Source of the DNA: a virus
IMG/VR virus record: IMGVR_UViG_3300042868_008327
Location: 1 to 22,414 of that record
Direction: 5' to 3' (one strand)
DNA length: 22,414 bases
The translations under genes and the position numbers were made by a program. Within the stretch, counting starts at the first letter, position 1. Every line of letters begins with the position of its first letter. This document shows positions 1 to 20,138 of this stretch, one piece after another. A model generated the notes under the pieces. It was not told the DNA's origin. It made no database searches and saw only the letters and a list, made by a program, of their open reading frames with translations.

Positions 1-501
1 ATTTTAATTTTTTTAAGAAATACTTCTTTTGGTCCTGAATACAATGTACAAATTACCGACCCTCAAACAGGGAAAAAATTTGGTGATGTTTTAAGATTAG
101 ACGAATTAGATTTTAGAAAACCATCTATTGAACCAAATGATGATGGTACTTTTGAGGTAAAATTACCTAAGTCCGGTGTAAATGTTAAACTTAGACCATT
201 ATTTTACAACGAATATCAAGAAATTAGTAAAAATGCTGAACAATATCCAAAAGGTAGAGTTGCACCAAGAGTTACTTGGAGATTACAAAAACAAATTGTT
301 TCTGTTGAAGGTGACACAAATCAAGGAACAATCAATAAGTTCATAGAAGGATTACCAATCATGGACTCCAAGTTTATCAGAAATTTCATAGATGAAAATG
401 AACCAAAATTAGATTTAAGAAAAACAGTAATGGCCCCGTCAGGAGTAAAAGTTGATGTAGAAATCAACTTTGGGGTCGAATTTTTTCGCCCTTTCTTCTG
501 A
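1..501 (+). CDS. gp26-like baseplate/tail assembly protein, 5' end missing
   Basis: Reading frame 1 is open from the first base to a TGA at 499-501, giving about 166 residues with the N-terminus outside the window. It resembles the T4 gp26 baseplate family: a central stretch with DSKFIRNFIDENEPKLDL, then a C-terminal strand reading VDVEINFGVEFFRPFF. Many T4-like phages have a similar acidic stretch followed by a 'GVxFFxP' ending. In T4, gp26 is needed for baseplate hub formation. Here it lies upstream of the tape measure gene, the usual place of tail assembly chaperones. All arginine codons are AGA except a single CGC near the 3' end. The frame ends just where a gp51-like segment continues in the +1 frame, so this may be the short product of a frameshifted pair. 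The family call is from pattern memory and is moderately sure. Confidence 0.65.
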   Translation: MLIFLRNTSFGPEYNVQITDPQTGKKFGDVLRLDELDFRKPSIEPNDDGTFEVKLPKSGVNVKLRPLFYNEYQEISKNAEQYPKGRVAPRVTWRLQKQIVSVEGDTNQGTINKFIEGLPIMDSKFIRNFIDENEPKLDLRKTVMAPSGVKVDVEINFGVEFFRPFF

Positions 502-637
502 TTATAAAAAATATCAACTTGACGAATATTATATTTTGTCAAAACATATGAACATGTCTTGGAGTGATTATTTAGTTATCCCAACATATGCAAGAAGGTA
601 TTTGGTTGATAAAATTATAGAATCATTTCAAAAATAA
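488..637 (+). CDS. gp51-like C-terminal segment in the +1 frame (possible frameshift product)
   Basis: Frame 2 is open from 461 (after a TAG at 458-460) to a TAA at 635-637. From 500 it encodes SDYKKYQLDEYYILSKHM, then a segment with SWSDYLVIP and ARRYLVDKI. This resembles the segment that follows the FFxP strand in gp26/gp51-type proteins of other T4-like phages, where an aromatic-rich helix, a 'mP' motif and an RRY/F motif occur. There is no good start codon: only a TTG at 470 or an internal ATG at 548, which would leave under 30 residues. The simplest readings are a +1 frameshift from the gp26-like gene around TTT-TTT-CGC (481-489), or a one-base sequencing error in the T6 run. The start given is the first codon after the proposed shift. 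It is the final gene-like segment before the tape measure gene. Confidence 0.5.
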   Translation, partial: ALSSDYKKYQLDEYYILSKHMNMSWSDYLVIPTYARRYLVDKIIESFQK

Positions 638-669: not shown

Positions 670-2514
670 ATGCTTCAAAACAATCCAAATACACCACCAA
701 ACCCTGGACAAAATAATCCTGGTAAAAATTTGTATGAACAAGGTGTTGATGAATTAAAAAAAGGTGTACAAAAGGCTTTTAATAGTTTTAATGAAGCTTA
801 CGAAAAGTTAGACCAACAAATCTCTGACAGTAATGCTAAATTGGCGGGTGTTTTTGGAACTACACAACAAGCTGTTAGAGGGTTAAGACAAGAATTTGCA
901 ATCGCAGCACCAAGAGTCGTTGAATTAGGTGGTAATTTTAAAGATGTTGAAACAATTCAAGAAAATATTGCCAAACAACTAGGTACTAATACAATAACTT
1001 TAGGTGAAACAGTCGGTGATTTATTTGCAGGTGCCCAAGCTTTGGGAATTACAAGCGAAAACGTTGGTGGTGTTGTTAGGTCTTTTGCCGACGCTGGTAT
1101 TGAAGTTGTTAAAATCAAAGAAAATTTTCAAGAAACCGTTGATATATCAAGAAGAGTTGGTGTAAACGCTGGTGCTGTTTTTCAAAATGTACAAACAAAT
1201 TTAAGTAAACTTAATGAATATGGTTTTCAAAACGGAGCTGCGGGTTTATCCAAAATGGCCGCACAAGCCGCTGGTTTAAGGATAAATATGAATGAGATAT
1301 TTCAGTTTGCCGAAAACGTATTTGACCCTGAAAAAGCCGTTGATATGGTATCCGCTTTCCAAAGAATGGGTGTTGCTGCCGGTGATTTGGCAGACCCATT
1401 TAGATTAATGTATTTGGCATCTGAAGATGTTGGAGAATTACAAAATCAAGTAGTTCAAATGACCCAAAAATTTACATACTTTGATGAAAAATCAAAAGAG
1501 TTTAAAGTTTTCCCAAATGCTAAAAGAGATTTAAGAGAGTTATCTACTCAAATGGGTATTTCATATGAAGATTTGGTTAAGATGTCTATAGGACAACAAA
1601 AACTAAATATGTTGAGTAATGAATTTAAAATTCCTGGTGTTAGTGAAGAAACCAAACAATTGGTTGCTAATATTGCTAAGATGAATCAAGAAGGTAAGTA
1701 TGAAGTTATGGTTGATGGTCAAGCTAAAGTAATTTCAGAACTTAATGAAGATGATATTAAATCATTAGAACAAGGACCGGCAACTTTGGAAGAAATTGCT
1801 AAAGCACAATTAACCAACAGTGAATTACAAAACGCTACTTTATTAAGTATTGCAACACAATTAGGAGCGGCACCTGCTGGTGCAAGAGCAATGGGTGATT
1901 TAGATGAGTTACTTAGAGGAACTGTCTCTGCTGTTGGTGATGAAAATAAAAGAGTAATTGGGAATACAAGAGCGGGTATTGAAAATATTGATAAATTAGT
2001 TGGAAGTAGTTACGAATCAATTCAAAAAGCTCTTAGTGGTGAGGGTGGATTAGAAGGTGTTGCAAATTTGTTAGGAGTTGCAGGAAAAGATATTGAAATT
2101 GGTTTAAATAACATTGGTCAAAAATTAAACTCAGAAGATTTTTCAAAATCTTTATCAAAATATATTTCGGAAAATAATAAATTAGCCGATTTAACAAAAG
2201 CGTCCGCATCAAAATTACAAAGTCTTCTTAAAGAAGGAACACAAACTGCGATTCCTACTGATGTTGGTAAAACAACTACGGATATTAGTGCGAAACAAAT
2301 TAATCAAAAAATTGATTTTAATCCTATAGAACATAGAGGTGCTATTAAAGTTGAAGTTACCACTCCATCAGGAGCATCTCAAACTTTAACGGACAATCAA
2401 ATTTTTGAATTATTTAAAAACGAAACATTTGTTAAACAAATGAATAGAATTATTTCAGACAATGCGACTTCAAATGTTCAATATGGTACAGTACCAAATA
2501 AAGTTGGAGGTTAA
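670..2514 (+). CDS. Tail tape measure protein (T4 gp29-like)
   Basis: This 614-residue protein is largely helical and rich in Ala, Gln, Glu, Asn and Gly. It has a Pro/Asn-rich start (residues 1-20), long amphipathic helices (21-130), a Gly/Ala/Val-rich section (about 95-250) and a short Thr/Lys tail. Tape measure proteins set tail length and guide DNA ejection. At about 1.5 Å per helical residue, 614 residues predicts a tail near 90 nm, close to T4, whose gp29 has 590 residues. Position supports the call: it directly follows the gp26/gp51-like pair and precedes baseplate genes. All arginine codons I read are AGA or AGG, none CGN. The ATG has no Shine-Dalgarno and is preceded by an inverted repeat and a TATTTATA element. 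The call rests on size, composition and synteny, not on a diagnostic motif. Confidence 0.7.
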   Translation: MLQNNPNTPPNPGQNNPGKNLYEQGVDELKKGVQKAFNSFNEAYEKLDQQISDSNAKLAGVFGTTQQAVRGLRQEFAIAAPRVVELGGNFKDVETIQENIAKQLGTNTITLGETVGDLFAGAQALGITSENVGGVVRSFADAGIEVVKIKENFQETVDISRRVGVNAGAVFQNVQTNLSKLNEYGFQNGAAGLSKMAAQAAGLRINMNEIFQFAENVFDPEKAVDMVSAFQRMGVAAGDLADPFRLMYLASEDVGELQNQVVQMTQKFTYFDEKSKEFKVFPNAKRDLRELSTQMGISYEDLVKMSIGQQKLNMLSNEFKIPGVSEETKQLVANIAKMNQEGKYEVMVDGQAKVISELNEDDIKSLEQGPATLEEIAKAQLTNSELQNATLLSIATQLGAAPAGARAMGDLDELLRGTVSAVGDENKRVIGNTRAGIENIDKLVGSSYESIQKALSGEGGLEGVANLLGVAGKDIEIGLNNIGQKLNSEDFSKSLSKYISENNKLADLTKASASKLQSLLKEGTQTAIPTDVGKTTTDISAKQINQKIDFNPIEHRGAIKVEVTTPSGASQTLTDNQIFELFKNETFVKQMNRIISDNATSNVQYGTVPNKVGG

Positions 2515-2552: not shown

Positions 2553-5500
2553 ATGCCAAGTCAATTAAGTTTTAGTGCTACCAAACTTTTAAGAGATAAG
2601 TTACTTTTAAGGAATCTTACCCCTTACACAAAACCAGGCGTTTACACACCAACATCAAAACCTGCTCAAGGTGATTTAATTCAAAGTGACACATCGGTAA
2701 TTGACTCACCTGATGTTTTAATTGACAACAGTCCATTCTCGGATAAATTATATACCCTTAATGAATATGGTCCTTTAGGTGGATATGATAAAAATATTGA
2801 TGGATTAATTAACACAGTTTCTAATTTACCAAATCAAGGACCGTATGGTGCTTACCCACCTTATACAGATGCTTTAGAACTTTATTCAACAACATTCCAA
2901 AAAAGACAATACATTAAAAACGTATATGGACCACAAGGTGGTTATTTAAACATCTACGATATTGGTGATATTATTAAAGTTCAAAAAAACGCCACTTATT
3001 GGGACCCACCAAGTTTCAGACCATCATCATATTCACCATTTGCGGTTTTATTACAAGAAGACCCAACAGGTGATAATGGATTATTGTCACAAGATTCTGA
3101 AATGGCCCAATTAGCTACTGAAAGAGCTAAGTACTCATTTAAACAAAGAGTAGACCAAAATGTAAGAAATAACACAATTGGTCGTGTTAATATTTTAAAT
3201 GGTTTTCAAGACCCTGCGAATCTATCTTTAATTATTGCCGGTAGAAGACCGATTATTGATAGAGATTGGAAGATTACTTCAGGTGGAGACATACTATCTC
3301 AAGGACAAGACATTGTACAAAGAATTGCAGGTTATACTTTTCCTGTATCACCAATTCCAGGTGACTATTTCCAAGCAAGAGATATTAACTCAAGTCAGTC
3401 AGCTGTTGAAGCCGCTCTGAGAGGTACTAGGGGTGGTTTATTTGGACTATTTGGTAATAGACCTACATCACCTTCACAATTATTTTTGGACTACACTGGT
3501 TCAGGTCAAAGACAACAATTAACATCAAATCTTGATTACAACTTTTACAGACCAAAATACAATACGGGTGGAACTGGAATATTATCTGCATTAGGTAATG
3601 CAATCTTAGGTGGTTTTGCCGATTCATTTGGAGCGGGAAATTATTATGTTGGTAGTCCTGAAAGAGAACCGGGTTATTTAACATCACCTCCAGGTCAAAT
3701 TCCTATTGACCAATTTGGTGCACAAGTTAGCGCACCTGTTTACGGTCCTGATATTTTAGGTAAAGAATATGAGGGTGTAGATAAAGACTTTAGTTTTGGT
3801 TTAAACGGTAGGTCTTTTGAAAGTGATGGTAATATCACAGGTGGATTCTCATGGGTTAGTGGTAAATGGGCTCCAAACGCAGGTAGAAAACAAAAACCAG
3901 GTGGAGATTACGGAACCGAAGATTCTGATTTTTCATCTATAGCAGACCAATTTGAGTCTACAAAGTCAATAAATTATGAATTCAAAGCAGGTTCAATACT
4001 TGATGATACTCAAAGATTAATTGACTCCCAACCAAACTCAGGTGCAAGATTTGGACATGTTGGTAACGCAATTGACCAAACATCAAAAATTTTCAATGAT
4101 GGTTACAAAGAAATTACAAAAGGTTCACAAGTTATAAAATATACAGACGGACAAGCCAATGTGGGTATTGAATATTGTAGAATATTCACAAAAGATACAC
4201 CATATTACACATTTAATGATTTACAGACAAAAGATGGAAACATTCGTAAGTTTTCATATTCTGTTATGGATTCAACTTTTAGTACCAACATTGTACCTGC
4301 CAAAGGGGGAGATGCTATTGTTGACGGACAAGTTAAAAAATACATGTTCTCAATAGAAAACTTAGCTTGGAGAACAGGATATAGACCTGGATACAGAGTT
4401 GATGACTTACCAACTTGTGAAAAAGGACCAAATGGGGGTAGAGTAATGTGGTTCCCACCTTACGGATTAGAATTTTCTGAGGATACAAGACCACAATTTA
4501 ATGAAACAACTTTCTTAGGTAGACCTGAACCAATATACACATATAAAAACACATCAAGAAGTGGTACACTTAAATGGAAAATGATTGTTGACCATCCATC
4601 AGTATTAAACTTAATTGTAAATAAAGTTTTAGCTAATGAAGGTGATAGACAAAAAGTGGATTCAATTGTAAATTCATTCTTTGCTGGTTGTAAAAAATAT
4701 GATTTGTATGACTTAGCAAGAATATACAATACAGTTCCATTAACTGACTTACAAGCTTGGCAACAAATTGTAACCGACCCAAATGTTTCTCAAGAACAAT
4801 TTAAACAAGTTTCAAATAATCTTGGAAACAATTCTGTCGGAACCGATAGCACTGCTGGTGGGGGAACGGTAGCGACACCACCAACAATAGATTTTTCTAA
4901 TTATAGAAGTCTTGGTTTTTATTTTGAAAATGATATACCAACAGCTGCTGGAGTACCATTCCAAAATCTATATGAAACATATACATCTGAAGCGAATAAA
5001 ACAGTATATGCTAACCAAAGTGGAAGTGGAGAAACAACTAACGCTTTCTTTTCTAATATTGTAGAAAACAACTTTAACCAATTGGTTGAAATGGGTAATA
5101 AAATTTATGAATCATTGTCACAAAAACAAGTTTCTAAAATTACTATTGAAATGATTGCCAGTGCTTCACCACCACAAGAAAAAAGGGCAAATAAAAAGTT
5201 GGGGGATAGAAGATTAACTTCAGCGATAGAGTTTTTTAAAACATATCCTTTTGGTGGAACATCAAATTCATTAAATCAATTTATTGATGATGGTAATTTA
5301 ATTGTTAAAGGTGTTAGTGTTGGTGAAGAGACTAATGTCAGTCCAAAAGGTAATGGTACTTTCGGACCATTTAATTGTACTGACAACGACCCTAATTCAC
5401 AACCAAATAGAGAAAAATATACTCCAAGAGCAATGGCTTGTAGAACATCGTTGATTAAAAATATAACCGTTGTTCCGGCTACACAAAATGCTCAACCAAC

Positions 5501-7400
5501 TAATAATGCTCCTAACGAGACATTAACTGCCGAAGGTAAAAAACCTGAACCACAAAAACCAAAACAAAATTCAAATGTTGGTGCACAACAACCACAAAAG
5601 GATTTATATAAAGGTGCATCTAAAAAACTTTTAAGATACTTGTTAAATGAATGTGATTATTTTGAAGTATTAAAGGCGGATAACCCATTTATCTACGACT
5701 CAATTAAAGAAAAGATAAAGTATTTCCAACCTTCATTCCATTCTCAAACACCTGAAGGATTAAATGCTAGATTAACATTCTTACAACAATGTATGAGACC
5801 TGGTGATACAATACCAACAATAGGTCCAAAAGGTGAAAAATTATATAATGATGCTACTAATACATCATTTGGGGCACCACCAGTATTAGTATTAAGAGTT
5901 GGAGATTTTTACAATACAAAAATTATCCCAACATCATTGAATTTTAATTATGATAGTGTATTTGACATGAACCCCGAAGGTATCGGATTCCAACCTATGA
6001 TTGTTGAGGTTAGTTTAGGATTTAATTTCGTTGGTGGTTCAGGATTAAAGAACCCAATTGATACGTTACAAAATGCGTTATCATTCAATTATTACGCAAA
6101 TACTGAAATGTATGACGAAAGAGCCGAAGCTACCGAAGATACTAGTAAGTTAGATAAACAAATTGTGGATGCACTTAAAAATCAAAACCCTGTTGTTGGT
6201 GTTTCAAACACTCAAAACAATAGAGCCAATGATGGTGGAAACACTATTGGTGTATTAACAAGTACAGGTACAACAAGTGGTCTTACAGGTACTATTGAAT
6301 ATGCAACATTTATGAATGGTTTTGTTAATAAAACAAAAGATTATTATACCGCAACATTAAACATGATGGACAATGTGTTGTTAAATTATAATTGGGGTGT
6401 TTTATCTTTATTAAACTTTTCAGGTGATAAAAATATTGGATACAATGAAGGTAAGTTTAATGGTGTTGAAACTACGATATACGGTAAACCTTTAAAAACT
6501 GAAGAGTATATAAGACAATCATTTGTTGAACTTGAAAAAAATATTGATGATGGAACATTATCTGTGTTTACAACATTAAACAATGATAAAAAAATAACAA
6601 ACTCACAAATAAAATTGTTTAAAAAGAACTATAAAAACTACTTAAATAATGGATATAAATCATCATTCTCTTCTGATTTATTTAACACCATAAGTACTTT
6701 AGTTCAAGTAGAACAAGATTTTGTTTATAATGTTGATAGGTTAAATTTTGTTACCGAAGGAAGTTCACCAACAAGTAAGGATGGTAGAATAAATGATAAA
6801 GGAATTGCTCAAATTTTCTCAACAACAGGAACCACTGAAACATCAAATGGTAAAAATACATTAACTGCTTTACGTGAGGATTATGCAATAATTGCTGGTG
6901 ATACAAACGATTATCTTACATCACTTACAACCGCTAATATATATGTACCTAACGCCTACGATTTTAAGAACGCAGGTGCGTTTACACCACCATCAGGTTT
7001 TGTTACTTTAACTAACCCAACACAAACTAGAGAGTATTTGTTAATGTCAAAAGCGATGATGGATAAAAACAGGGAAAGTTTTGTTACAGCTCTTATTGAA
7101 GGTTTAGATATTGCAACATCTGATGTTATAAGAAGTGTTTATGAAGTTACAAGAGCTAAAGAATATAATGATTTAAATGCTAAAGGTTTACAGTTAGTTT
7201 CTTCATACAGAACAAGTCCTGACGGTAAAAAATATTTAGAATATACACCATCATTTGGTACCACCCAAACAAGAATCACAAATACAAGTGAAAACACTAA
7301 TGCATCTAATGATGTTAAAAAAACCCTTCAAAATATATATTCAGGTAAAAATGATTCAAATAAAGATAACCCATACAACTTTAAAAGTAAGTTTAACTAA
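2553..7400 (+). CDS. Large tail/baseplate structural protein with OmpA-like domain
   Basis: This 1615-residue protein fits no single T4 gene but has segments that recur in structural proteins of marine T4-like phages. Residues 1-180 are rich in Gly, Pro, Tyr and Asn, with repeated N-x-YGP-x-GGY motifs (NEYGPLGGY, NVYGPQGGY). About 607-690 contain WFPPYGLEFSED and a GTLKWKMIVDHPSVLN strand pair. About 780-900 look like an OmpA C-terminal domain: FYFENDIP, then ITIEMIASAS, then NKKLGDRR. About 1062-1190 contain RPGD, VLVLRVGDFYNTKI, DMNPEGIGFQPM and LQNALSFNYYANTEMYDER, a block resembling baseplate or tail-tube-junction proteins. A Pro/Gln/Lys linker lies near 985-1020. No signal peptide or transmembrane segment is evident. 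The stop TAA shares its last A with the next gene's ATG, suggesting coupled translation. A baseplate role is likely; the exact T4 counterpart is unclear. Confidence 0.7.
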   Translation: MPSQLSFSATKLLRDKLLLRNLTPYTKPGVYTPTSKPAQGDLIQSDTSVIDSPDVLIDNSPFSDKLYTLNEYGPLGGYDKNIDGLINTVSNLPNQGPYGAYPPYTDALELYSTTFQKRQYIKNVYGPQGGYLNIYDIGDIIKVQKNATYWDPPSFRPSSYSPFAVLLQEDPTGDNGLLSQDSEMAQLATERAKYSFKQRVDQNVRNNTIGRVNILNGFQDPANLSLIIAGRRPIIDRDWKITSGGDILSQGQDIVQRIAGYTFPVSPIPGDYFQARDINSSQSAVEAALRGTRGGLFGLFGNRPTSPSQLFLDYTGSGQRQQLTSNLDYNFYRPKYNTGGTGILSALGNAILGGFADSFGAGNYYVGSPEREPGYLTSPPGQIPIDQFGAQVSAPVYGPDILGKEYEGVDKDFSFGLNGRSFESDGNITGGFSWVSGKWAPNAGRKQKPGGDYGTEDSDFSSIADQFESTKSINYEFKAGSILDDTQRLIDSQPNSGARFGHVGNAIDQTSKIFNDGYKEITKGSQVIKYTDGQANVGIEYCRIFTKDTPYYTFNDLQTKDGNIRKFSYSVMDSTFSTNIVPAKGGDAIVDGQVKKYMFSIENLAWRTGYRPGYRVDDLPTCEKGPNGGRVMWFPPYGLEFSEDTRPQFNETTFLGRPEPIYTYKNTSRSGTLKWKMIVDHPSVLNLIVNKVLANEGDRQKVDSIVNSFFAGCKKYDLYDLARIYNTVPLTDLQAWQQIVTDPNVSQEQFKQVSNNLGNNSVGTDSTAGGGTVATPPTIDFSNYRSLGFYFENDIPTAAGVPFQNLYETYTSEANKTVYANQSGSGETTNAFFSNIVENNFNQLVEMGNKIYESLSQKQVSKITIEMIASASPPQEKRANKKLGDRRLTSAIEFFKTYPFGGTSNSLNQFIDDGNLIVKGVSVGEETNVSPKGNGTFGPFNCTDNDPNSQPNREKYTPRAMACRTSLIKNITVVPATQNAQPTNNAPNETLTAEGKKPEPQKPKQNSNVGAQQPQKDLYKGASKKLLRYLLNECDYFEVLKADNPFIYDSIKEKIKYFQPSFHSQTPEGLNARLTFLQQCMRPGDTIPTIGPKGEKLYNDATNTSFGAPPVLVLRVGDFYNTKIIPTSLNFNYDSVFDMNPEGIGFQPMIVEVSLGFNFVGGSGLKNPIDTLQNALSFNYYANTEMYDERAEATEDTSKLDKQIVDALKNQNPVVGVSNTQNNRANDGGNTIGVLTSTGTTSGLTGTIEYATFMNGFVNKTKDYYTATLNMMDNVLLNYNWGVLSLLNFSGDKNIGYNEGKFNGVETTIYGKPLKTEEYIRQSFVELEKNIDDGTLSVFTTLNNDKKITNSQIKLFKKNYKNYLNNGYKSSFSSDLFNTISTLVQVEQDFVYNVDRLNFVTEGSSPTSKDGRINDKGIAQIFSTTGTTETSNGKNTLTALREDYAIIAGDTNDYLTSLTTANIYVPNAYDFKNAGAFTPPSGFVTLTNPTQTREYLLMSKAMMDKNRESFVTALIEGLDIATSDVIRSVYEVTRAKEYNDLNAKGLQLVSSYRTSPDGKKYLEYTPSFGTTQTRITNTSENTNASNDVKKTLQNIYSGKNDSNKDNPYNFKSKFN

Positions 7401-7720
7401 TGGATGCTTATTATAACCGATACCAACAATTTTTAATCAATGGAGAACAAACCGTTGTTCCATTTGTGCCGTTACCATCTAAAACATCTGACCAAAGATT
7501 TATTTATAGAACAGGATTTAGTAGATTGGATAAAGTCTCACAACAGTATTATGGTTCACCGTTATTTGGTTGGTTAATTTTACAAGCAAATCCTGAGTAT
7601 GGTGGATTAGAATGGAATATACCTAACAATTCTATATTGACTATACCATATCCGCTTATATCTTCATTACAAGATTATAAAAACGGATTGGATAACTATT
7701 TCTTCTATTATGGCAGGTAA
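7400..7720 (+). CDS. Baseplate wedge protein, gp53-like (LysM-like fold)
   Basis: This 106-residue protein reads as a compact T4 gp53-type wedge subunit: an N-terminal YNRYQQFLINGE, then VVPFVPLPSK, a central IYRTGFSRLDKVSQQYYG, GWLILQANP, and a C-terminal SILTIPYPL-x-SLQDY. The segment 'RLDKVSQQYYG…GWLILQANP…IPNNSILTIPYP' has the layout of a LysM module (a repetitive helix pair, then an 'I..G..I.IP' strand). T4 gp53 joins neighbouring wedges around the hub. Its ATG overlaps the previous stop by one base (TAATG), and its own last 11 bases overlap the start of the hub gene, so the three genes probably form a translationally coupled cluster. Family assignment is fairly firm from the motif order and the position among baseplate genes. 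Confidence 0.8.
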   Translation: MDAYYNRYQQFLINGEQTVVPFVPLPSKTSDQRFIYRTGFSRLDKVSQQYYGSPLFGWLILQANPEYGGLEWNIPNNSILTIPYPLISSLQDYKNGLDNYFFYYGR

Positions 7721-10700
7721 CGAATTTAATACTAACGATGATATCTTTGTTGATTTTGATTACCAAAATATTGTTTTAGTTGACCCAAACAAAACAGTAC
7801 GATTAGACGGTACAGTACAAGAAAGACAAATACACCATGAAAACTTGGTTATGTATGCTAACTTGGAAGCTAAAATGTTGCCAAGAACTAAGCTAGCCGT
7901 TGGACAATCTTTGTTAGACCCAATCCAAACTACACCAATTGCTTCAATAAATTTCCTAAGACCTGGTGGTAAAACAACATTAACAAACAGTTATATTGAT
8001 GAAATAACGGGTTTAAATTCTATTAGCGGTAAAGGTACAAATCAACCTGGTAAAAACATTAGAAGTGAAAGTAAACCTGATGATTTTTATATAACTCAAA
8101 ATACTTTAAATAGACAAGATACAGGACTTTTAGGTATTGAGTCTATCCGTGTTAAAAACACAAGAAGTATGACACCTACTGTTGAAATTACCCTAATTGA
8201 TACACAAGGTAGAGCGTTATTTGAAAAAGGTGAAAATTCAGAATACGCCAGCTTTTTTAATTTACCATACCCAACATTTTATTTAACACTCAAAGGTTAT
8301 TATGGTAAGGCAATTAGATATCAATTAATTTTAACTAAATTCTCAGCCGCGTTTGAAGGTAATACAGGTAACTATAGAATTTCATTAACTTTTTATTCTT
8401 ACAAATATACAATATTAGCCGAGTCACAAGTAGGTTCTTTATTTGCGACACCATACATGTACCCAACAGATTTTAGACTTAATTCTACGGCACCACAAAG
8501 TGGACAAGTAAACGCCAGTCTGTCTTCTATTGGAAATACATCAACTCAAACTCAAAGTATTAGAACTACCAAAGGTTATCAAACAATTAGAGACGTTTAC
8601 AAAAAATATAAAGCCGAAGGGTTAATCTCACCTGATTTACCTGAGTTATCTTTTCCTGAATTAAGGGCTCGTCTTGAGGCTTTAGAAAAAAATCTACAAA
8701 TTAGTTTTGGACAAGCCGATTTCACACCATTATCTGATGTTGAAACATATTTTAAATTATTGACAAAATTAAGGGATGATATAACAGGTCCTGACGGTTG
8801 GTTCTCAAAATATGTTGACCCAAACAAACAATTTGTACTTAATTCATCATTAGTTGACGGTCAACAAAATGTTATTACGTACATTTACAACGAAAAAACA
8901 ATAAAAGACCCACAACTTAGAACAGATGCCTACAATCAATTAAAAGAACTTATTGTTAGTTATACTACTGATTTAAAAAAGAATAAAACATTAGGTTTAG
9001 GTGGTAATTTTACAGTTGAAAATGTTAAATACGATTCTGAAATTAAAGACATCAATAAAATTAATATTAAAAATTCACCACCAAATTCAATAGACCCCGA
9101 TGTTGTCAGAAAAGTAATAGATTCAAAAGAAATTAATTGGAGAGAAACATTTATTTTAAGAAATAAAAGGGAACCTGTTGGAGGAGAAGAAAATTTATTG
9201 GCAATTCAAGAATCAACATTTTTTATAGCAATTGAATCAACAAATAGTGAAGGTTCACTTGTACTACCGACATACAATTTTGTTTTTGAAGGTAAAAATA
9301 ATTTTTCAGGTATTATAGATACCGTGTTTGGTGAAATTTCACAGAAAAAAGAATTAATTGTTACTAAACTAAGTGAATTTTTATCTAAAAAAATTGAAGG
9401 TGATGATGGTTTAGGGTTTAAACCTACTCTAAGAAATATTATGGCGATGATATTTGCTTCAGTTGAGGCGTTTTATCGTTTAATGGATGATGTTCACTCA
9501 CAAGCTTGGGCTCAACGATTAAACCCAATTAGAAAAAGAGCGGTGTATGATGATACTAAAACATCTGTTAGTTCTGACAGTAAAGATTTAGTACAAAGAA
9601 CGTCTAACAATGGATTGGCAGGAATACCCGTTTACCCATGGCCTCAATATTTTGTTGAAACTAATTCAGAAAATGGTGAACAATTTGAGTTAAGATACCC
9701 TGGTGACCCAAAAGAAATATCTAGAACAAGAGCTAATAATTTTGAAGTTTGGCCTGAGGTACAATTTGTTGAAGAATATATTAGAGGTTTAGCTCAAAGA
9801 GCTAATATTGAAACAGGTCCATCAGGTAGTCAAAACGAACAAAGAACAATTAAAAGATTATCGGTAAACTCAGTTGATTTCCCGATGACAAATGTGCCAT
9901 ATAGTGATTATGATAGTGTAAAATATTTGTATGAAATATATGAAAGAATTTTAATATCTGCGTATTATGATAGAATATTAAAAACAAATTCTAAACAATT
10001 TTCAGTATTAAATACAATATCAGATATTGAAACAACAAACATACTTGAATCATTAAACACAACTAGTCCATTTTTAGTTAATTTTTTAAAAAATACTGTA
10101 TTAAACAGTGCGTCATATTTAACCATATTAAGACAAACATCTAATGATGGTACAGGACCAAGTTGGCAGGAATTTATTAGAGGTATTTTTACATCATCTT
10201 ATTTAAGAGGAATTACCAACCAAGATTTTTCAATATTAGATAACTCTTTAATACAACCACAGTCAATATCAACATCTTTAAAGGTTGACAGTCTTACAAA
10301 ATTAGAAGAGTATGTTAAATCAACACAATCAAGTGAAAATGATGTTACAGATTTATATCCGTTTATTAGTGAAACGTGGTCTCAAAATAATTTAGCTAAT
10401 TATGTAAGTTCTGCCGATAGATATGAAACAACAAAAAGTTTATTCGTTAACACTGAAAAAAGATTTATAACAAATTACCAAAGTCCTGAAAGTCAAAATG
10501 ATAATAGACCTTTTATAAACGGTTCTTTTTTATCTGCAGGACTAAGTGAAACTCAAACAACTAGTTTAACTAATCAACAGTTTGGTGATTTTTATAGACA
10601 AAGAAGGGAAAATTTCGGATTAAATTATTTTATAACAGAAGGACCTGTTAATTATGTTAATGCTGAATTTGATTCAGTGTCAAATCTACAAACAACATCA

Positions 10701-13700
10701 ATGTTGAATACACCAATTTTTATGAACGCATTTCATGAAGGTGTTCAGTTAGATAGAAATAATGGTGACCAATATCCATATGTTAAGGCGTCTTATTTAT
10801 TGTTAAACTCATTACCATTATCAACACTAAGAGAAAAATATAAAACAATTACATCACCAAAATCCGATATCGCCGAACAAGATTTAGATTATATATTTGC
10901 TTCTTTAACTAAATTTGGTGGGGTACATAAATTACCATACGCTTGGATATTAAAGTATGGTTCAATTTGGCACAGATATAAAAAGTATATTCAGACTGGT
11001 GTAGATTTGTTAGATTCAGTTTGGACTAATCTACCTGCAAACAATTATTATAACCCAACAAACGGTTTATCAAATCAATATACCTTTACATCAAAAACAA
11101 ATACAGAGTACAGTGTATATGGTCAAATTAATGTATCAAATACTAATGGTTCACAAACTGTTATGAATATGGGTTTTTATCCTGTATTAATTAATGACAC
11201 CTATTTCTTTGTTACAGGTCAAGACTTGTTAACATCATATGATAGTTCTAATATACAATCCGCAATTGATGACGGTTTAGTTATTGGTACAATACCAAAT
11301 GCGTCAATCCAACAAGATGTTTTATTTGATACCAAAAATCCTACTCGCACATTAAATTACAATAGTTGGTTTACAACTTTTAATACGGGTAATTCGCCTA
11401 AATTTAAAGAATCCTTAAACCAAAAAACCTTAGTACTCCCAAGTTTTGGAACTGAGTATAACCAAGTAAAACAAGAGTGTTTTATTGGTAATACATTACA
11501 ACTTGAAGTTTCAGGAAACACTTCATTATATAATGGTTCTGCAAGAATGTTTTGGTCGGCACCAAACTACGGTTATTTTGAACTATCAAGTGTTACAAAA
11601 CCTAATTACAATGAATACTTTAAAGAGGTTTATAGTAATAACAACGCTCAAGAACCATTTAAGTTTGGACAAACATATTCAAAAATTGAGGATATGTTTG
11701 GAGTGTTTAAAACAGAAATATTAGATGCATTTGAAAATGAATTTTTAAACTTTTCAAAATCATTTAATGATATTAGTTCTGAAAACATTACTGATAATAC
11801 TTTTGTTAATAGAAATTTTCAATCTTTACTAACTAATGCACTTACAATAAATCAAGTTGATGGTAGTGAAAACGGTGATAACTACACAAAAGATGTTAGT
11901 GAAAAACAAATGAACAATTTGACAACAATATTGAAACAATTTATCAATTATGATGTTGTCTTTAGATTTGGTAACCCGAGTAATTTTAACAGAAAATTAT
12001 TTGTTACATTTACAACTGATGCTCAATATAACATATATGACAAATATGTGTGGGAACCTTATATACAAAATACATTACCAACAAGTGGTGGAACCATAAC
12101 ACAAAATCAATCTGAGTTAATAAATCCTGATGCATGGAAAACAATGTATACCTATGTTGGATTTGCAAGTCAAAGTGGTTTAACCTATTCAAATAGTGGT
12201 AGTTATTATACCGACTTTTTTGTTGATGCAAATATGGAATTCACAAGTGTAAATATTATTACATTTGCACCAATTATAAAAATGTATGGAACTCAAAAAT
12301 TATTGAATAATGGTAATTATACTTTTGGTGATTTTAAAACAAGTGTTAACGAATACTACACTCAAAATGAAACATCTTTAAATGAAGTTCTTAATTTGGT
12401 CACATCAAATCTTAATAAAAGATTACAATCATATACTGTAGTTGCAGACAAACCAATATTATCCGCAATTGATGGAGCTCAACCAAAAATAGAATTATAC
12501 GAAGCCTTCAAATCATTTAATGACAAATGGATAGCCGGTGGGGAATTTAGAGATAGAACATTGTTCCAAGATGTCTTGTTTTTAGATAGAGCTAATAGAG
12601 ATATTGGTGATAGAGTCTATGTTGATGTTTTTAAATTAAAAGATTTCTTCTCAGGTTCAACATCAATGGATACAAGAATTATTGATTTTGTTAGTAGAAT
12701 TATTGCCGATAATAAATTTATAATGATGCCTCTTCCAGCCTACATGAATTTTTGGGGGGTTGGAGATGTTAAACAAGGTGTCCCACCAAATGCTGAAAAA
12801 TCGTCTGAATTGGCAAATTCTTTATTTGGAACATTTTTAGATGTTGACTATAGAGATTCACAACCAAAATTGGTTTGTTTTTATGCTGGTAAACCAAGTG
12901 AACATTTGGATATGAGAGAAAATGCTGACTATAGATGGAGAACAGATGCTTTTGATTTAACCAGAATATCCGACATGCCATTGGTTGATAAATTACAAAA
13001 CAAAACAGATTGGGCCCAATCCAATAAAGTTGTTGGATTTAATGTTGATTTCGGAACAAGAAATCAGGGAATGTTTTATAGTATACAGTTAGACCAAAAC
13101 ACCGCAGCGGCAACAACAGAAGCTAATATGGTGGTTACAAATATGGCCAATAGAGCTGGTGGTAGACCAACAACTAATCAAAACGTATCATTATATAATT
13201 TATATAAAAACCGAAGTTATGAGTGTAGAGTTGAGTCCATGGGTAATATGATGATTCAACCAACAATGTACTTTAACTTAAGATATGTTCCTATGTTTAG
13301 AGGACCATATATGATTCAATCGGTAGAACACAGTATTGATGGTGGTCAGTTTAGAACTTTTTTCACAGGTGTTAGGATGCCTGTATATTCATTACCGTTA
13401 ATAGAGCAACAATTAATATCTATTAACCAAAACTTATTAACTGAATTAGTTCAGAGTGTTAGACGAACTAAAGAAACCGAATCAACTGGTGCACAACCAG
13501 CTGTTAACACTATTACTATTGGTAACTCAATTCTAACTAATGTTAAATACACACCAGGGTTCCAATCTGAATGTTTTGCGGACATACAAAACGCTAATAT
13601 AAATTATCAAAGATTTACGGGTATTGAAAATACACAACAGAGTATTACGTTTAGTGATTTGTGTTCTTTAATTGGACAAAATGCTGAAACAAATCCGTTA

Positions 13701-14186
13701 AGAGCGATAATATTCTTTATAGCTTACATAAATGGCCATGATGATAATAAGGTTTATAGTTTTAATAATGATTTAGGTGGTACCCCTTTAGGTGGATTAC
13801 CATTCCCACAAATATCATATGGAGGTAGGGATGTATACTTTAAAAAAGAATATGCTTGTAAATCAAATCAAAATGGTACCGCGTTACCATATGCTATTTT
13901 TGAATCATACGAAAATTCAATAAAGTTCATTAGAGATTATTTTTCACCAAATGGTAGTACTAATACAGGTATTTTATTTAGTGACCCTGATTACACTTGG
14001 AACACTAAAGAAAAGTATATTGGTGCCATGGTTGATATCTATCTTAGATATTGGCCACAAGGAAGAACAAAAGAAGAAGTTGAAAGATGGTTAAAAACTA
14101 ATAAGACATCAGTTGAAAAAATAATAAAATACGCCGAAAGAGCAATTGAAATTTCAATACAAAATAAACTAATTAACATATCTTAA
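7710..14186 (+). CDS. Giant baseplate hub-like protein, 2158 residues
   Basis: This is the largest gene in the window. N-terminal residues 100-250 contain GLLGIESIRVKNTRSMTPTV, then ALFEKGENSEYASFFNLPYP and LTLKGYYGKAIRYQL, a pattern found in hub/tail proteins of distant T4-like phages. About 635-710 hold GIPVYPWPQYFVE and EVWPEVQFVEEYIRGLAQRA. About 1770-1892 resemble a gp27/gpD-type hub barrel: YECRVESMGNMMIQPTMYF, PMFRGPYMIQSVEHS and FRTFFTGVRMP. The rest, about 720-1770, is Asn/Thr/Ser-rich and unrecognised. About 1963-2150 form a separate C-terminal domain with SFNNDLGG, YFKKEYACK and PYAIFESYENSIKFI, faintly like a cell-wall hydrolase of the glucosaminidase type. T4 gp27 has only about 390 residues, so this is probably a fusion or expansion. 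The ATG overlaps the gp53-like stop. Hub role is inferred; the C-terminal activity is speculative. Confidence 0.7.
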   Translation: MAGNEFNTNDDIFVDFDYQNIVLVDPNKTVRLDGTVQERQIHHENLVMYANLEAKMLPRTKLAVGQSLLDPIQTTPIASINFLRPGGKTTLTNSYIDEITGLNSISGKGTNQPGKNIRSESKPDDFYITQNTLNRQDTGLLGIESIRVKNTRSMTPTVEITLIDTQGRALFEKGENSEYASFFNLPYPTFYLTLKGYYGKAIRYQLILTKFSAAFEGNTGNYRISLTFYSYKYTILAESQVGSLFATPYMYPTDFRLNSTAPQSGQVNASLSSIGNTSTQTQSIRTTKGYQTIRDVYKKYKAEGLISPDLPELSFPELRARLEALEKNLQISFGQADFTPLSDVETYFKLLTKLRDDITGPDGWFSKYVDPNKQFVLNSSLVDGQQNVITYIYNEKTIKDPQLRTDAYNQLKELIVSYTTDLKKNKTLGLGGNFTVENVKYDSEIKDINKINIKNSPPNSIDPDVVRKVIDSKEINWRETFILRNKREPVGGEENLLAIQESTFFIAIESTNSEGSLVLPTYNFVFEGKNNFSGIIDTVFGEISQKKELIVTKLSEFLSKKIEGDDGLGFKPTLRNIMAMIFASVEAFYRLMDDVHSQAWAQRLNPIRKRAVYDDTKTSVSSDSKDLVQRTSNNGLAGIPVYPWPQYFVETNSENGEQFELRYPGDPKEISRTRANNFEVWPEVQFVEEYIRGLAQRANIETGPSGSQNEQRTIKRLSVNSVDFPMTNVPYSDYDSVKYLYEIYERILISAYYDRILKTNSKQFSVLNTISDIETTNILESLNTTSPFLVNFLKNTVLNSASYLTILRQTSNDGTGPSWQEFIRGIFTSSYLRGITNQDFSILDNSLIQPQSISTSLKVDSLTKLEEYVKSTQSSENDVTDLYPFISETWSQNNLANYVSSADRYETTKSLFVNTEKRFITNYQSPESQNDNRPFINGSFLSAGLSETQTTSLTNQQFGDFYRQRRENFGLNYFITEGPVNYVNAEFDSVSNLQTTSMLNTPIFMNAFHEGVQLDRNNGDQYPYVKASYLLLNSLPLSTLREKYKTITSPKSDIAEQDLDYIFASLTKFGGVHKLPYAWILKYGSIWHRYKKYIQTGVDLLDSVWTNLPANNYYNPTNGLSNQYTFTSKTNTEYSVYGQINVSNTNGSQTVMNMGFYPVLINDTYFFVTGQDLLTSYDSSNIQSAIDDGLVIGTIPNASIQQDVLFDTKNPTRTLNYNSWFTTFNTGNSPKFKESLNQKTLVLPSFGTEYNQVKQECFIGNTLQLEVSGNTSLYNGSARMFWSAPNYGYFELSSVTKPNYNEYFKEVYSNNNAQEPFKFGQTYSKIEDMFGVFKTEILDAFENEFLNFSKSFNDISSENITDNTFVNRNFQSLLTNALTINQVDGSENGDNYTKDVSEKQMNNLTTILKQFINYDVVFRFGNPSNFNRKLFVTFTTDAQYNIYDKYVWEPYIQNTLPTSGGTITQNQSELINPDAWKTMYTYVGFASQSGLTYSNSGSYYTDFFVDANMEFTSVNIITFAPIIKMYGTQKLLNNGNYTFGDFKTSVNEYYTQNETSLNEVLNLVTSNLNKRLQSYTVVADKPILSAIDGAQPKIELYEAFKSFNDKWIAGGEFRDRTLFQDVLFLDRANRDIGDRVYVDVFKLKDFFSGSTSMDTRIIDFVSRIIADNKFIMMPLPAYMNFWGVGDVKQGVPPNAEKSSELANSLFGTFLDVDYRDSQPKLVCFYAGKPSEHLDMRENADYRWRTDAFDLTRISDMPLVDKLQNKTDWAQSNKVVGFNVDFGTRNQGMFYSIQLDQNTAAATTEANMVVTNMANRAGGRPTTNQNVSLYNLYKNRSYECRVESMGNMMIQPTMYFNLRYVPMFRGPYMIQSVEHSIDGGQFRTFFTGVRMPVYSLPLIEQQLISINQNLLTELVQSVRRTKETESTGAQPAVNTITIGNSILTNVKYTPGFQSECFADIQNANINYQRFTGIENTQQSITFSDLCSLIGQNAETNPLRAIIFFIAYINGHDDNKVYSFNNDLGGTPLGGLPFPQISYGGRDVYFKKEYACKSNQNGTALPYAIFESYENSIKFIRDYFSPNGSTNTGILFSDPDYTWNTKEKYIGAMVDIYLRYWPQGRTKEEVERWLKTNKTSVEKIIKYAERAIEISIQNKLINIS

Positions 14187-15288: not shown

Positions 15289-16131
15289 ATGATGAGCTCA
15301 CTTGACGCAGTACTGGCACAGTACGAAAAAAACACACAATCATTTGGTGACACAAACAGAATGTCCCAAGAAGAAAGAATGAAAAAGTATTTTGCTTGTA
15401 TTCTCCCACAAGGACAATCACAAGGACAACGCAGAGTACGTATCCTTCCTAGTAAGGATGGTTCCTCACCTTTTAAAGAGGTTTGGTACCATGAACTACA
15501 AGTTGGTGGTAAATGGCAAAAATTTTACGACCCAGGTAAAAACGATAATGAACGTTCACCATTGAATGAAGTTCATGAAGAATTGATGGCTACAGGTAAA
15601 GAGTCAGACAAAGAATTGGCTAAACAATATAAATCTCGTAAATTCTATATTGTAAAGGTTGTTGACCGTGACGCTGAAGAAGAAGGTGTAAAATTCTGGC
15701 GTTTTAAACACAACTACAAGAATGAAGGTATTCTTGACAAAATTATTCCAATTTGGAGACAAAAGGGTGACATCACTGATTCAGATAAAGGTCGTGATTT
15801 AGTTATTCAGTTGGTTAAATCTAAAACTCCTGGAGGAAAAGATTACACAACTATTCAAACCATTATGCACGATGACCCAACAAAACTCCATGAAGATGAG
15901 AAGGTTATGAAAGAGTGGTTGATGGATGAGTTAACTTGGAATGATGTTTATTCTAAAAAACCCGTAGAATATTTGGAAGCAATTGCTCGTGGAGAAGAAC
16001 CACGTTGGGATAGTGAAACAGGTAAATATCTTTACGGTGATAGCGCAATCATGTCAATGGGTGGTGGTAAATTACAAACACCAATGGACCCACAAATGAA
16101 TGCTGAAGTTGACGAAGATTTACCATTCTAA
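15289..16131 (+). CDS. 32: Single-stranded DNA-binding protein, gp32-like
   Basis: This 280-residue protein coats single-stranded DNA during replication, recombination and repair. It matches the T4 gp32 family in layout: an N-terminal helix (SLDAVLAQYEKN), a core with RVRILPSKDGSSPFKEVWYHE, KFYIVKVVDRDAEEEGVKFWRFKHNY and DLVIQLVKSK, and an acidic C-terminal tail. T4 gp32 has 301 residues and one zinc held by His and three Cys. Only one cysteine (C37) is visible here, so the zinc subdomain is lost. The last residues, EVDEDLPF, resemble the DDxPF tip by which bacterial SSB recruits partner enzymes. ATG at 15289 is followed by a second ATG at 15292; either could be used. The gene is a single unit between a strong promoter and two strong terminators, fitting high expression. 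CGT is common among its arginine codons, unlike the tail genes. Confidence 0.85.
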   Translation: MMSSLDAVLAQYEKNTQSFGDTNRMSQEERMKKYFACILPQGQSQGQRRVRILPSKDGSSPFKEVWYHELQVGGKWQKFYDPGKNDNERSPLNEVHEELMATGKESDKELAKQYKSRKFYIVKVVDRDAEEEGVKFWRFKHNYKNEGILDKIIPIWRQKGDITDSDKGRDLVIQLVKSKTPGGKDYTTIQTIMHDDPTKLHEDEKVMKEWLMDELTWNDVYSKKPVEYLEAIARGEEPRWDSETGKYLYGDSAIMSMGGGKLQTPMDPQMNAEVDEDLPF

Positions 16132-16139
16132 TTAAACTG

Positions 16140-16179
16140 AGCTTGGACACTTACTTAAACATAGTGTCCAAGCTTTTTT
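16140..16179 (+). terminator. Strong intrinsic terminator after the gp32-like gene
   Basis: AGCTTGGACACT (16140-16151) pairs perfectly with AGTGTCCAAGCT (16163-16174) to form a 12-bp stem with an 11-base loop, followed by a run of T, an A and another T run. It begins 8 bases after the stop codon. It would isolate the gp32-like unit from uvsX, which starts 33 bases further on. Confidence 0.92.
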
Positions 16180-16212
16180 ATTTTTTATAAAAAAACAATA
16201 CACACATAGACA

Positions 16213-17220
16213 ATGGCGATTAAAAAAAATAATGACTTTGGGTCGGTAAAGAAAAAGTTTTCTTCTTCCGCAAAATATAAACCACAAAGGTTTTTTGATT
16301 TAGGAAAAGACTTTTTGGATGCTGTAGGACTTCCAGGTCCTTCTATTGGACATCTTAATATGTTCTTGGGTCACTCTGACACAGGAAAAACAACTGCTGC
16401 CGTAAAAACAGCTGTGGCTGCGCAAAAGATGGGTATTTTACCTGTTTTTATTATTACAGAACAAAAATGGAGTTTTGAACATGCTAAACTTATGGGATTT
16501 GACTGTGATGAAGTAGTTGATGAAGAAACAGGTGAAATGGATTGGGATGGTTTCTTTATCTTTAATAACAATTTCAGTTATATTGAACAAATTACTGATT
16601 ACATCAATGAGCTTTTAGATGCTCAAGAAAAAGGTGAGATTGATTATAGTTTGTGTTTCATTTGGGATTCGGTAGGTTCAGTACCTTGTAAGATGACATA
16701 CGAAGGTAAAGGTGGTAAACAACACAACGCTGCGGTACTTGCCGACAAAATTGGTATGGGCATCAACCAACGTATTTCAGGTTCAAGACGAGCCGATTCA
16801 AAACACGAAAATAGTCTTGTTATTATCAACCAACCATGGGTTGAATTACCTGACAATCCATTTGGACAACCAAAAATTAAAGCAAAAGGTGGTGAAGCGA
16901 TTTGGTTGAATTCATCTTTGGTATTCTTATTTGGAAACCAAAAAGGAGCAGGAACCAACAAGATTTCTGCAACAAAAGACAAACGTACAGTAAAGTTTGC
17001 AATTAGAACTAAGGTATCTGTACTCAAAAACCATATCAATGGTTTAGGTTATGAGGATGGTAAAATCATTGTAACACCACACGGATTCTTGGCCGGTAAA
17101 GATGCTAGCGAAGAAAAAGTTTCAATAGAATCGTATAAAAAAGAATATGCTGAATATTGGAAAGAAATCATCGGTGTTGATGGTGATTTTGATTTGAAAG
17201 AGGAAGTTGAACCAGCATAA
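16213..17220 (+). CDS. uvsX: UvsX-like RecA-family recombinase
   Basis: This 335-residue ATPase forms filaments on gp32-coated DNA and catalyses strand exchange for recombination-dependent replication. The Walker A loop is GHSDTGKTT at residues 53-61. A catalytic glutamate is likely in IITEQKW (E83), and Walker B is LCFIWDS ending at D152. MGMGINQRI (181-189) and KGGEAIWLNSSLVFLF (225-240) match the core after Walker B and the DNA-binding loop region of the family. T4 UvsX has about 390 residues; this one is somewhat shorter. The C-terminus is acidic (EEVEPA). The ATG lacks a Shine-Dalgarno and is preceded by AC-rich sequence. It follows the gp32 terminator, so it depends on readthrough or an unseen promoter, and is 9 bases from the next gene. 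Confidence 0.9.
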   Translation: MAIKKNNDFGSVKKKFSSSAKYKPQRFFDLGKDFLDAVGLPGPSIGHLNMFLGHSDTGKTTAAVKTAVAAQKMGILPVFIITEQKWSFEHAKLMGFDCDEVVDEETGEMDWDGFFIFNNNFSYIEQITDYINELLDAQEKGEIDYSLCFIWDSVGSVPCKMTYEGKGGKQHNAAVLADKIGMGINQRISGSRRADSKHENSLVIINQPWVELPDNPFGQPKIKAKGGEAIWLNSSLVFLFGNQKGAGTNKISATKDKRTVKFAIRTKVSVLKNHINGLGYEDGKIIVTPHGFLAGKDASEEKVSIESYKKEYAEYWKEIIGVDGDFDLKEEVEPA

Positions 17221-17229
17221 TAAAAAATT

Positions 17230-18240
17230 GTGAAGACACTTTTAGTAGATGGAGATAACTTATTTAAAATCGGATTCCATGGAGTCAGAGATTTATTTGT
17301 TGAAGGAAACCACATTGGGGGTGTCTTCCACTTTCTCAATGCCTTGCGTAAGCAGGTGGACGAACACAATTACGACAGGGTTATCGTATTTTGGGACGGT
17401 GACGACAACGCAGAACCAAGACGTAAATTATATCCTAACTATAAGTTAAATCGTAGACAAGGTATGAACGAGTATAAACTTGAATCATACCACGAACAAA
17501 AACAAAGAGTTAAAGAATACCTTGAAGAATGTTTTGTTAGACAAATCAAGGTTAATGTTTGTGAGGCAGATGATTTAATTGCTTACTATTGTAGTATTGC
17601 AAAAGATGAAACAAAAATCATTTTTTCCGCTGACAAAGACTACGTACAACTCATTGATGAAAAAACATCAATATATTCACCAATTGCCAAAGTAACATAT
17701 AAACTTGGTGATAAGGTTAAGATTGGTAGTCACGAATTTCCACACTATAATGTAATGACATTAAAAATATTAACTGGTGATAAGTCAGATAATATTAGTG
17801 GTATATACCGTCTTGGAGATAAGACATTAGTTAAGCTATTTCCTGAGGTACTTGATTCGGTGATTACTTATGAGTATATTTTGTCTAAGTCAAAAGAACT
17901 TTTAGAACAAGACGAAAAGAACACAACTTTAAAAAATATATTAAGTGGAAAAACAAAAGAAGGTGAATTCGGTCAAGAATTCTACAAAACAAACGAGAAA
18001 ATTGTGGACCTTAAAAATCCAATTATTTCTGATGAAGGCAGGTCAGTGGTTGAACAATATTTTTCCGATACACTAGACCCCGAAGGTAGGGGTTACAAAA
18101 ACCTAATACGTATGATGATGAATGATGGGTTCTTCAAATACCTCGGCAAGAGTGATGATGAATTCATTAAATTTATCAACCCATTTATGAAATTAACAAG
18201 AAAAGAAAAAAGACAACACAAAAACAATAACCAAAATTAA
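17230..18240 (+). CDS. rnh: RNase H / 5'-3' flap exonuclease (FEN family)
   Basis: This 336-residue enzyme belongs to the FEN/5'-nuclease superfamily like T4 RNase H, which removes RNA primers from lagging-strand fragments. Two-metal acidic residues are in place: VDGDN (D7, D9), VFWDGDD (D56), CEADDLIAYY (E112, D114, D115), FSADKDYVQL (D135, D137) and LTGDKSDNISGI (D184, D187). The last motif leads the helix-hairpin-helix region with YRLGDKTLVKLFPE. T4 RNase H has 305 residues, so the length fits. The start is GTG at 17230, giving MKTLLVDGDN; there is no better upstream ATG, and the catalytic motif starts only five residues in, which fixes the start. It sits between uvsX and the unknown gene, in a replication cluster. 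Confidence 0.9.
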   Translation: MKTLLVDGDNLFKIGFHGVRDLFVEGNHIGGVFHFLNALRKQVDEHNYDRVIVFWDGDDNAEPRRKLYPNYKLNRRQGMNEYKLESYHEQKQRVKEYLEECFVRQIKVNVCEADDLIAYYCSIAKDETKIIFSADKDYVQLIDEKTSIYSPIAKVTYKLGDKVKIGSHEFPHYNVMTLKILTGDKSDNISGIYRLGDKTLVKLFPEVLDSVITYEYILSKSKELLEQDEKNTTLKNILSGKTKEGEFGQEFYKTNEKIVDLKNPIISDEGRSVVEQYFSDTLDPEGRGYKNLIRMMMNDGFFKYLGKSDDEFIKFINPFMKLTRKEKRQHKNNNQN

Positions 18241-18246
18241 TTAATT

Positions 18247-18696
18247 ATGAAAGAAGTAGATGTAATTAAGATGGAGTTTTTAATAACTCTAAACAACAAC
18301 ATTGTAATCCAACGTTACTTTAATGTAAGAGGTTACAACCCAACAGCTAGAGCTTCAATGGAACTCTACGAGTACATTAAGTACCTTACAAACGCTTTTG
18401 CTTACGACCAAAAGATGCGTTCAGTATGTTATTTAATGGACAACGAATATGAAATTAGTGAAGACCCGACTATTTTGGAAACGTCAAATACTGATGGTCC
18501 TGAGGTGTTTAACTTTTATGTTAAGGTTGGAGAACAGACAATTTGTCATAGAGTGTTGGATGCGAAAGTTTTCCCACCTAAAATAAGATACACCGTAGAT
18601 ATACGCCAGCAAGTAAAAACTGTACTTAGGGACCTAACTGACATTTTTTCAGCTGAAAATTTAACTACGAATTATATGAACTATAGCCTTGTTTAA
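18247..18696 (+). CDS. Conserved-looking protein of unknown function, 149 residues
   Basis: I cannot name this protein. It starts with KEVDVIKMEFLITLNNNIVIQRYFNVRGYN, which looks like a pair of beta strands, then a helix (ARASMELYEYIKYLTNAFAYDQKM), a segment with VCYLMDNEYE, and a C-terminal FNFYVKVGEQ, TVDIRQQVKTVLRDLTDIFSAENLTTNYM. No nucleotide-binding, zinc or membrane motif is visible. It lies six bases after the exonuclease gene and 38 bases before the gp41-like helicase. T4 has gene 40 between uvsX and 41, but no sequence resemblance is evident to me. Placement suggests a replisome or helicase-associated role, which is inference only. Confidence 0.75.
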   Translation: MKEVDVIKMEFLITLNNNIVIQRYFNVRGYNPTARASMELYEYIKYLTNAFAYDQKMRSVCYLMDNEYEISEDPTILETSNTDGPEVFNFYVKVGEQTICHRVLDAKVFPPKIRYTVDIRQQVKTVLRDLTDIFSAENLTTNYMNYSLV

Positions 18697-18698
18697 GG

Positions 18699-18724
18699 TA
18701 TTTATCAGAACACTAAAAAGGGAG
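18699..18724 (+). promoter_or_regulatory. TATTTATC element and Shine-Dalgarno-like GGGAG before the helicase gene
   Basis: TATTTATC at 18699-18706 is one base off the TATTTATA octamer seen before late genes. Further on, GGGAG at 18720-18724 lies 10 bases before the ATG at 18735. This is the only start in the window with a purine-rich Shine-Dalgarno-like sequence; the others are simply A-rich. Spacing is slightly long, so function is uncertain. Confidence 0.3.
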
Positions 18725-18734
18725 CAAACAAACT

Positions 18735-20114: not shown

Positions 20115-20138
20115 ATAAATCTTATTAAAAAAAATAAA

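Follow-up and report, generated by a model that had tools for sequence, protein, structure and literature searches.

A conserved +1 frameshift site as the best explanation for a divided T4-type tail assembly chaperone gene

Introduction

The G/GT frameshift is conserved in long-tailed phages, and T4 has been named as the exception to it (PMC5009743); the title of Vladimirov et al. 2022 attributes the T4-like chaperones to a mechanism other than frameshifting. Is this also the case for a gp26-type gene whose reading frame ends early while a second frame stays open beyond its stop? The question is raised by the beginning of a 22,414-base virus record in IMG/VR, the whole stretch of DNA that we analysed and that we call the window, which opens inside such a gene. 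A preliminary description had proposed that a +1 programmed frameshift joins the gp26-like frame to a gp51-like segment. We find that this is the best explanation: a T4-type tail assembly chaperone would be made in two forms from one start by a +1 programmed frameshift, a reading to which we give a probability of roughly 0.88, and all 78 relatives that reach the junction agree with it.

Results

Layout of the locus

The features of the locus are collected in Table 1. The 5' third of the gp26-type ORF lies off the contig and full-length relatives have around 249 aa. The gp26 frame terminates with ...FGVEFFRPFF, whereas the +1 frame is bounded by TAG at 458-460, being thus open from 461, and by TAA at 635-637. 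These limits, as well as the positions of the slippery stretch and of the TGA, are exactly those of the preliminary description. In the proposed slip the P-site UUU is 484-486, which could re-pair with UUC at 485-487, and the A-site codon is CGC, a rare Arg codon. Regarding codon usage, the earlier count was also correct: the partial gp26 gene has nine AGA and one CGC, and there is no CGC in 670-2514. Furthermore, in-frame TTT CGN occurs a single time across all the window ORFs, at 484.

Table 1. Coordinates of the features discussed, in window positions.
Feature	Positions	Strand	Evidence
gp26-type short tail assembly chaperone ORF, 3' part (166 codons)	1..501	+	PF12322 and phrog_150 matches
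GGGG run: Gly codon GGG (472-474) and the next G	472..475	+	nucleotide-level conservation; begins 15 bases before CGN
Putative shift site TTT TTT CGC, gp26 frame	481..489	+	invariant TTT TTT CGN in 78 tblastn-selected relatives
0-frame stop TGA, closing the short product (tail RPFF)	499..501	+	0-frame stop 4-6 codons past the site in 78/78 relatives
+1-frame extension, 49 aa and TAA, gp51-like or 'T' segment, ALSSDYKKYQLDEYYILSKHMNMSWSDYLVIPTYARRYLVDKIIESFQK	488..637	+	dN/dS 0.08; homology to the immuto-clade extension
614-aa ORF at the place of the tape measure gene	670..2514	+	synteny only

The downstream ORF had been taken for the tape measure gene. Its place agrees with this, since the gene after the equivalent locus is annotated as tape measure in Flavobacterium phage immuto and in LIS04; its product gave no convincing family match of its own in Pfam or PHROG, and we therefore name it putative tape measure gene by synteny.

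Conservation of the site among relatives

Relatives were picked by gp26 protein similarity alone (tblastn, IMG/VR), which gave 80 loci with 58-86% identity, 78 of them reaching the junction. Every one of these 78 has an in-frame TTT TTT CGN, a 0-frame stop soon after it and a +1 frame that continues past this stop, an agreement that chance is far from explaining. The +1 frame stays open for 42-49 codons past the 0-frame stop (57 in one locus, L020), and the +2 frame is mostly shut within 16 codons, with a maximum of 35. L020 is peculiar in that its extension is interrupted around 70 bases past the shift site, after ...HTSWS, and gives way to different sequence resembling the beginning of the following gene, as a deletion or misassembly would produce.

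The preliminary description considered a one-base error in the T6 run as the main alternative. A motif scan of the IMG/VR viral contigs found the T6 pattern in at least 120 stretches and the T5 version in none, and therefore a one-base error is ruled out. The extension was present in the 79 T6 motif matches inspected, loci which were selected by the motif and are therefore left out as evidence for its conservation. Among the relatives we found none with a single continuous frame. We found nothing in favour of a sequencing error or a pseudogene, which independent contigs and the strong purifying selection on the extension described below speak against; we consider it practically negligible.

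Coding evidence and the lack of a conserved start

Both frames are protein-coding. In 27 non-overlapping close pairs of extensions, counted after the 0-frame stop, dN/dS was 0.08 in the +1 frame versus 1.41 and 1.50 in the other two, and among 107 distinct extensions there were 0 stops in the +1 frame versus 106 and 107 in the others. The pooled pN/pS of all pairs, which is saturated, was 0.505 versus 1.05 and 1.13. The extension is thus under strong purifying selection. Its length is 46-62 aa, and in the first alignment the distinct extensions have the residues S, S, P, R and L invariant in common.

The extension could also be an independently initiated small gene. In favour of this, a homologous domain is a separate ATG-started ORF in LR756511, and Pseudomonas phage Cygsa01 has a TAATG-coupled ORF at the equivalent place. 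In the +1 frame of the window there are a TTG at 470 and ATGs further in, so that the earlier claim of no credible start has to be restricted: potential starts exist, although none of them is conserved. In nine window-clade loci (L009-L011, L028, L033, L034, L048, L049 and L081) the +1 frame has a stop three codons ahead of the end of the site, and none of ATG, GTG and TTG occurs between this stop and the conserved SSD motif; initiation at the first inner starts would remove the SSD...LDEF part. Moreover, the shift site is exactly where conservation sets in, and keeping T6-CGN would be pointless for an independently initiated gene. A separate gene is therefore very improbable, and a shift from the gp26-type frame remains our preferred reading.

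Selection on the nucleotides of the site

We counted codons in 37 variants with distinct extensions, which are related to each other, so the counts are descriptive. The last two codons before the proposed A site were TTT TTT in 37/37, whereas elsewhere in the gene 77% of the Phe codons are TTT and 23% TTC. The next codon was Arg CGN in all 37, versus around 18% CGN and 82% AGA or AGG elsewhere in the gene. Its third base varies (CGC 18, CGT 12, CGG 6, CGA 1). The proposed slow codon after the slippery one is conserved as CGN, and not specifically as CGC.

Upstream, the Gly codon at 472-474 was GGG in 35 of the 37 variants, compared with 7% of the Gly codons elsewhere. GGG stands at the equal offset in 37 of the 83 distinct members of a second clade described below (11% elsewhere). 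A Shine-Dalgarno role for this GGG was considered; its spacing is unlike that in prfB, and most of the window starts have no Shine-Dalgarno sequence, both of which speak against such a role. No conserved RNA structure was found around the site in either clade (alifold energy around 0, mean z around -0.3).

A sister clade and other phages with the +1 relation

Using the window piece as query we reached Flavobacterium phage immuto and, through it, a second clade of around 115 IMG/VR loci. In the readable loci the gp26-type ORF ends after TTT TTT TGG, TTT CTT TGG, TTT CTA TGG or TTC TTT TGG, with TTT CTT TAC as the single exception, and the open +1 frame carries the motif FFGLT...MPIWLRxFTF. In all 83 distinct members the +1 frame is open and an in-frame UUU has U or C after it, and 28 of them have no start upstream of the site. 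The extensions of the two clades are homologous (hhalign E=1.5e-11).

The +1 relation at UUU_Y was also found in distant relatives, phages of Flavobacterium, Microcystis, Rhodothermus, Bacillus, Listeria and Streptococcus. Among the named genomes are immuto, SP-15 (UUU_CAC), GXN1 (UUU_CGU), LR756508 (UUU_CUA), Mel-JY01 and RM378 (UUU_UGG), LIS04 (UUU_UUU_AGU) and QdP_Psa3 (UUU_CCC). The annotations of immuto, SP-15 and LIS04 omit the extension or start it wrongly. For GXN1 and RM378 hhalign detected no sequence relation of the extensions, so that they agree in frame and place only, and the agreement of QdP_Psa3 is likewise limited to the frame and place of its extension.

These variant sites bear on two further explanations. 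RNA polymerase might slip on T6, so that a fraction of the mRNAs with five U would encode the fusion, and the invariance of T6 in the window clade fits this. Nevertheless, the T runs are of at most three or four in GXN1 (TTCTTTCGT), LR756508 (AACTTTCTATTC) and immuto (TTTCTTTGG), where the +1 relation is kept, and the conserved CGN would be superfluous for transcriptional slippage, which we regard as a very unlikely cause. A ribosomal shift of -2, in the manner of phage Mu, leads to the equal frame with one extra residue, and the frame alone cannot separate it from +1 (PMC3498833). However, a -2 slip on GAR TTT TTT needs tRNA-Phe to pair with ART-like triplets, and the sites TTC TTT TGG, TTC TTT CGT and TTT CTA TGG re-pair poorly at -2 and always contain UUU_Y. 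The -2 shift is consequently unlikely, if somewhat less so than polymerase slippage, and we go on with the +1 shift.

Protein family and architecture

The window piece matches PF12322 just above the cut-off (E=2.2e-5; 24.7 bits, cut-off 24.5) and the full-length relative L003 matches it with 37.1 bits. In PHROG the match is phrog_150, 'baseplate hub' (E=1.7e-7 for the window piece, E=2.1e-14 for the short form). The short product is, judging from these profiles, a T4 gp26-type protein and putative chaperone. T4 gp26 consists of PF12322 alone, whereas T4 gp51 is PF12322 (1-201) plus 48 residues. Over the 282 positions of phrog_150, gp26 covers 14-235, the window-clade short form 10-234 and gp51 13-280; fusing the extension in L003 lengthened the match to 264/282. 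The extension thus appears to occupy the position of a C-terminal region present in gp51 and missing from gp26.

When BFVD was searched with an AlphaFold model of the short form, whose pLDDT is 86.9, gp26-type proteins were matched, namely the hub protein of SP-15 (E=5e-19) and gp26 of Aeromonas phage 25 (E=1.3e-5); the PDB holds no solved structure for the short form, by sequence or by fold. In the gp51 model there are helices at 206-221, 226-230 and 234-248, and in this region lies an MxPxxR-like motif common to gp51 and the extension. Compared with the C-terminus of T4 gp51, the extension gave a marginal hhalign match (E=0.003, probability 11%) with a plausible register around MxPxxxR, so direct homology was not significant by HMM, and the extension alone gave only chance-level matches in Pfam and PHROG. 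The gp51 link made in the preliminary description therefore stands on position, architecture and the shared motif, direct sequence homology being marginal. A connection with the small eCIS protein family DUF6760 was considered, and a literature search found no paper on it.

The -1 branch and the tree

At the equivalent FF position, S-RIM8, Bellamy, Aeromonas 65.2, KVP40, SRB7757 and Atu_ph07 have U_UUU_UUC followed by an extension in the -1 frame; in XacN1 the site is T-rich and the open frame is likewise -1. Poly-T -1 signals have already been reported for T4-like TAC genes (PMC12846349). We observed -1 sites joining gp26 to a gp51-like frame in L217 (3669-3869), L343 (2663-2869), L344 (3277-3489) and L220 (3178-3357), loci which belong to the cyanophages S-RIM8 and Bellamy, KVP40 and Aeromonas 65.2. 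Where small gp51-like genes are annotated in these -1 phages, they begin inside the -1 frame after the site. Phrog_634, 'baseplate hub assembly catalyst', is matched both by the -1 extension of S-RIM8 (E=2e-30) and by residues 147-246 of T4 gp51 (E=1e-23).

In the tree, built from 32 short forms, two label changes are needed for the +1 users, which have LR756511 and its separate ORF among them and may have a single origin. The -1 users fall outside them, several branches being long, and T4 gp26/gp51 lies among the -1 users, a join flagged as possibly false. As the +1 users are grouped, the -1 users are outside and the two genes of T4 are among the latter, the direction of the shift would have changed about once. 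We consider it likely that the gp26/gp51-type pair is made in bacteria by +1 shifting at UUU_Y in a large branch of contractile-tailed phages of the T4 type, most of them uncultured, with the window clade using a UUU_CGN site of the PA-X class, and that the direction switched about once without loss of the extra domain.

Rest of the window

Downstream of the place of the tape measure gene there are two very large ORFs, 2553-7400 (1615 aa) and 7710-14186 (2158 aa), neither with a PHROG match and the second also without a Pfam match. T4-like replication genes occupy 15289-21419, namely a gp32-like gene, a RecA/UvsX-like gene, a 5'-3' exonuclease, a DnaB-like helicase and the small chain of ribonucleotide reductase. 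Shine-Dalgarno-like sequence was nearly absent from the 13 ORF starts checked, the start at 18735 having AAAGGGAG. This scarcity, as in Bacteroidota-type initiation, may hint at the host group; a search of genome contigs for a host found no relative.

Discussion

Some T4-like phages are reported to have a short gene and a longer gene fusing the short and the downstream part (PMC10885494, citing Vladimirov et al. 2022). Together with the gp26/gp51 architecture this leads to the reading that here one gene would yield both forms by a +1 shift. Most ribosomes would stay in the gp26-type frame, terminate early and release a short G-like form, of around 249 aa in the full-length relatives. On some of them tRNA-Phe would slip from UUU to UUC ahead of the rare CGN codon and enter the +1 frame, giving the longer fused form, hence a G/GT-like pair encoded upstream of the tape measure gene. 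Both forms would then act on the tape measure protein, the putative product of the next gene. We infer the slippage itself, its direction (+1 and not -2), its efficiency and the chaperone function. Points that weigh against this reading are the absence of a conserved RNA structure at the site, the low efficiency of PA-X given below, the spacing of the GGG and the marginal sequence match to the gp51 C-terminus.

If this is right, the family holds +1, -1 and two-gene branches, and it becomes testable how the direction of recoding changes while the product is kept. A +1 site, UUU_CGN, known from RNA viruses of eukaryotes would be placed in bacteria, and cultured phages with the site would make it possible to study how efficient it is and how tRNAs and ribosomes affect it. 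Many phage genomes would also gain a corrected annotation.

Comparison with known systems

Lambda gpG/gpGT is the classic case of such a pair; lambda shifts -1, whereas +1 is proposed here. Relatives by family are T4 gp26 and gp51, the short and the long tail assembly chaperone of T4 (Vladimirov et al. 2022, as cited in PMC10885494), both with PF12322: the short form matches gp26 and the fused form has the gp51 architecture, but T4 has two separate genes where we propose one gene and a +1 shift. The -1 T4-like chaperones of cyanophages, KVP40 and Aeromonas 65.2 belong to the common gene family, have their site at the same FF position and have the extension unannotated or mis-started as well; they differ in using U_UUU_UUC and the -1 frame instead of UUU_Y and +1. 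For a +1 precedent among tail chaperones, Listeria phage PSA had been invoked; its +1 case concerns the Tsh gene (PMC3498833). The archaeal myovirus HSTV-2, with a 'very likely +1' chaperone frameshift (PMC5009743), is a closer precedent, being +1 in the tail chaperone of a contractile-tailed virus.

Regarding the site itself, the closest model is influenza A PA-X, UCC_UUU_CGU, in which tRNA-Phe passes from UUU to UUC with a rare CGN codon next in line, and in which the shift is only around 1% (PMC3498833). Both have UUU_CGN, a P-site UUU going to UUC, a rare A-site Arg codon and no known 3' structure. Similar sites occur in fijiviruses, bee paralysis virus and amalgaviruses, and Firth et al. 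predicted the CGN-preferring class in other eukaryotic viruses and left its use in cellular genes open (PMC3498833). All those are RNA viruses of eukaryotes, and in PA-X the E-site codon is UCC where here it is UUU.
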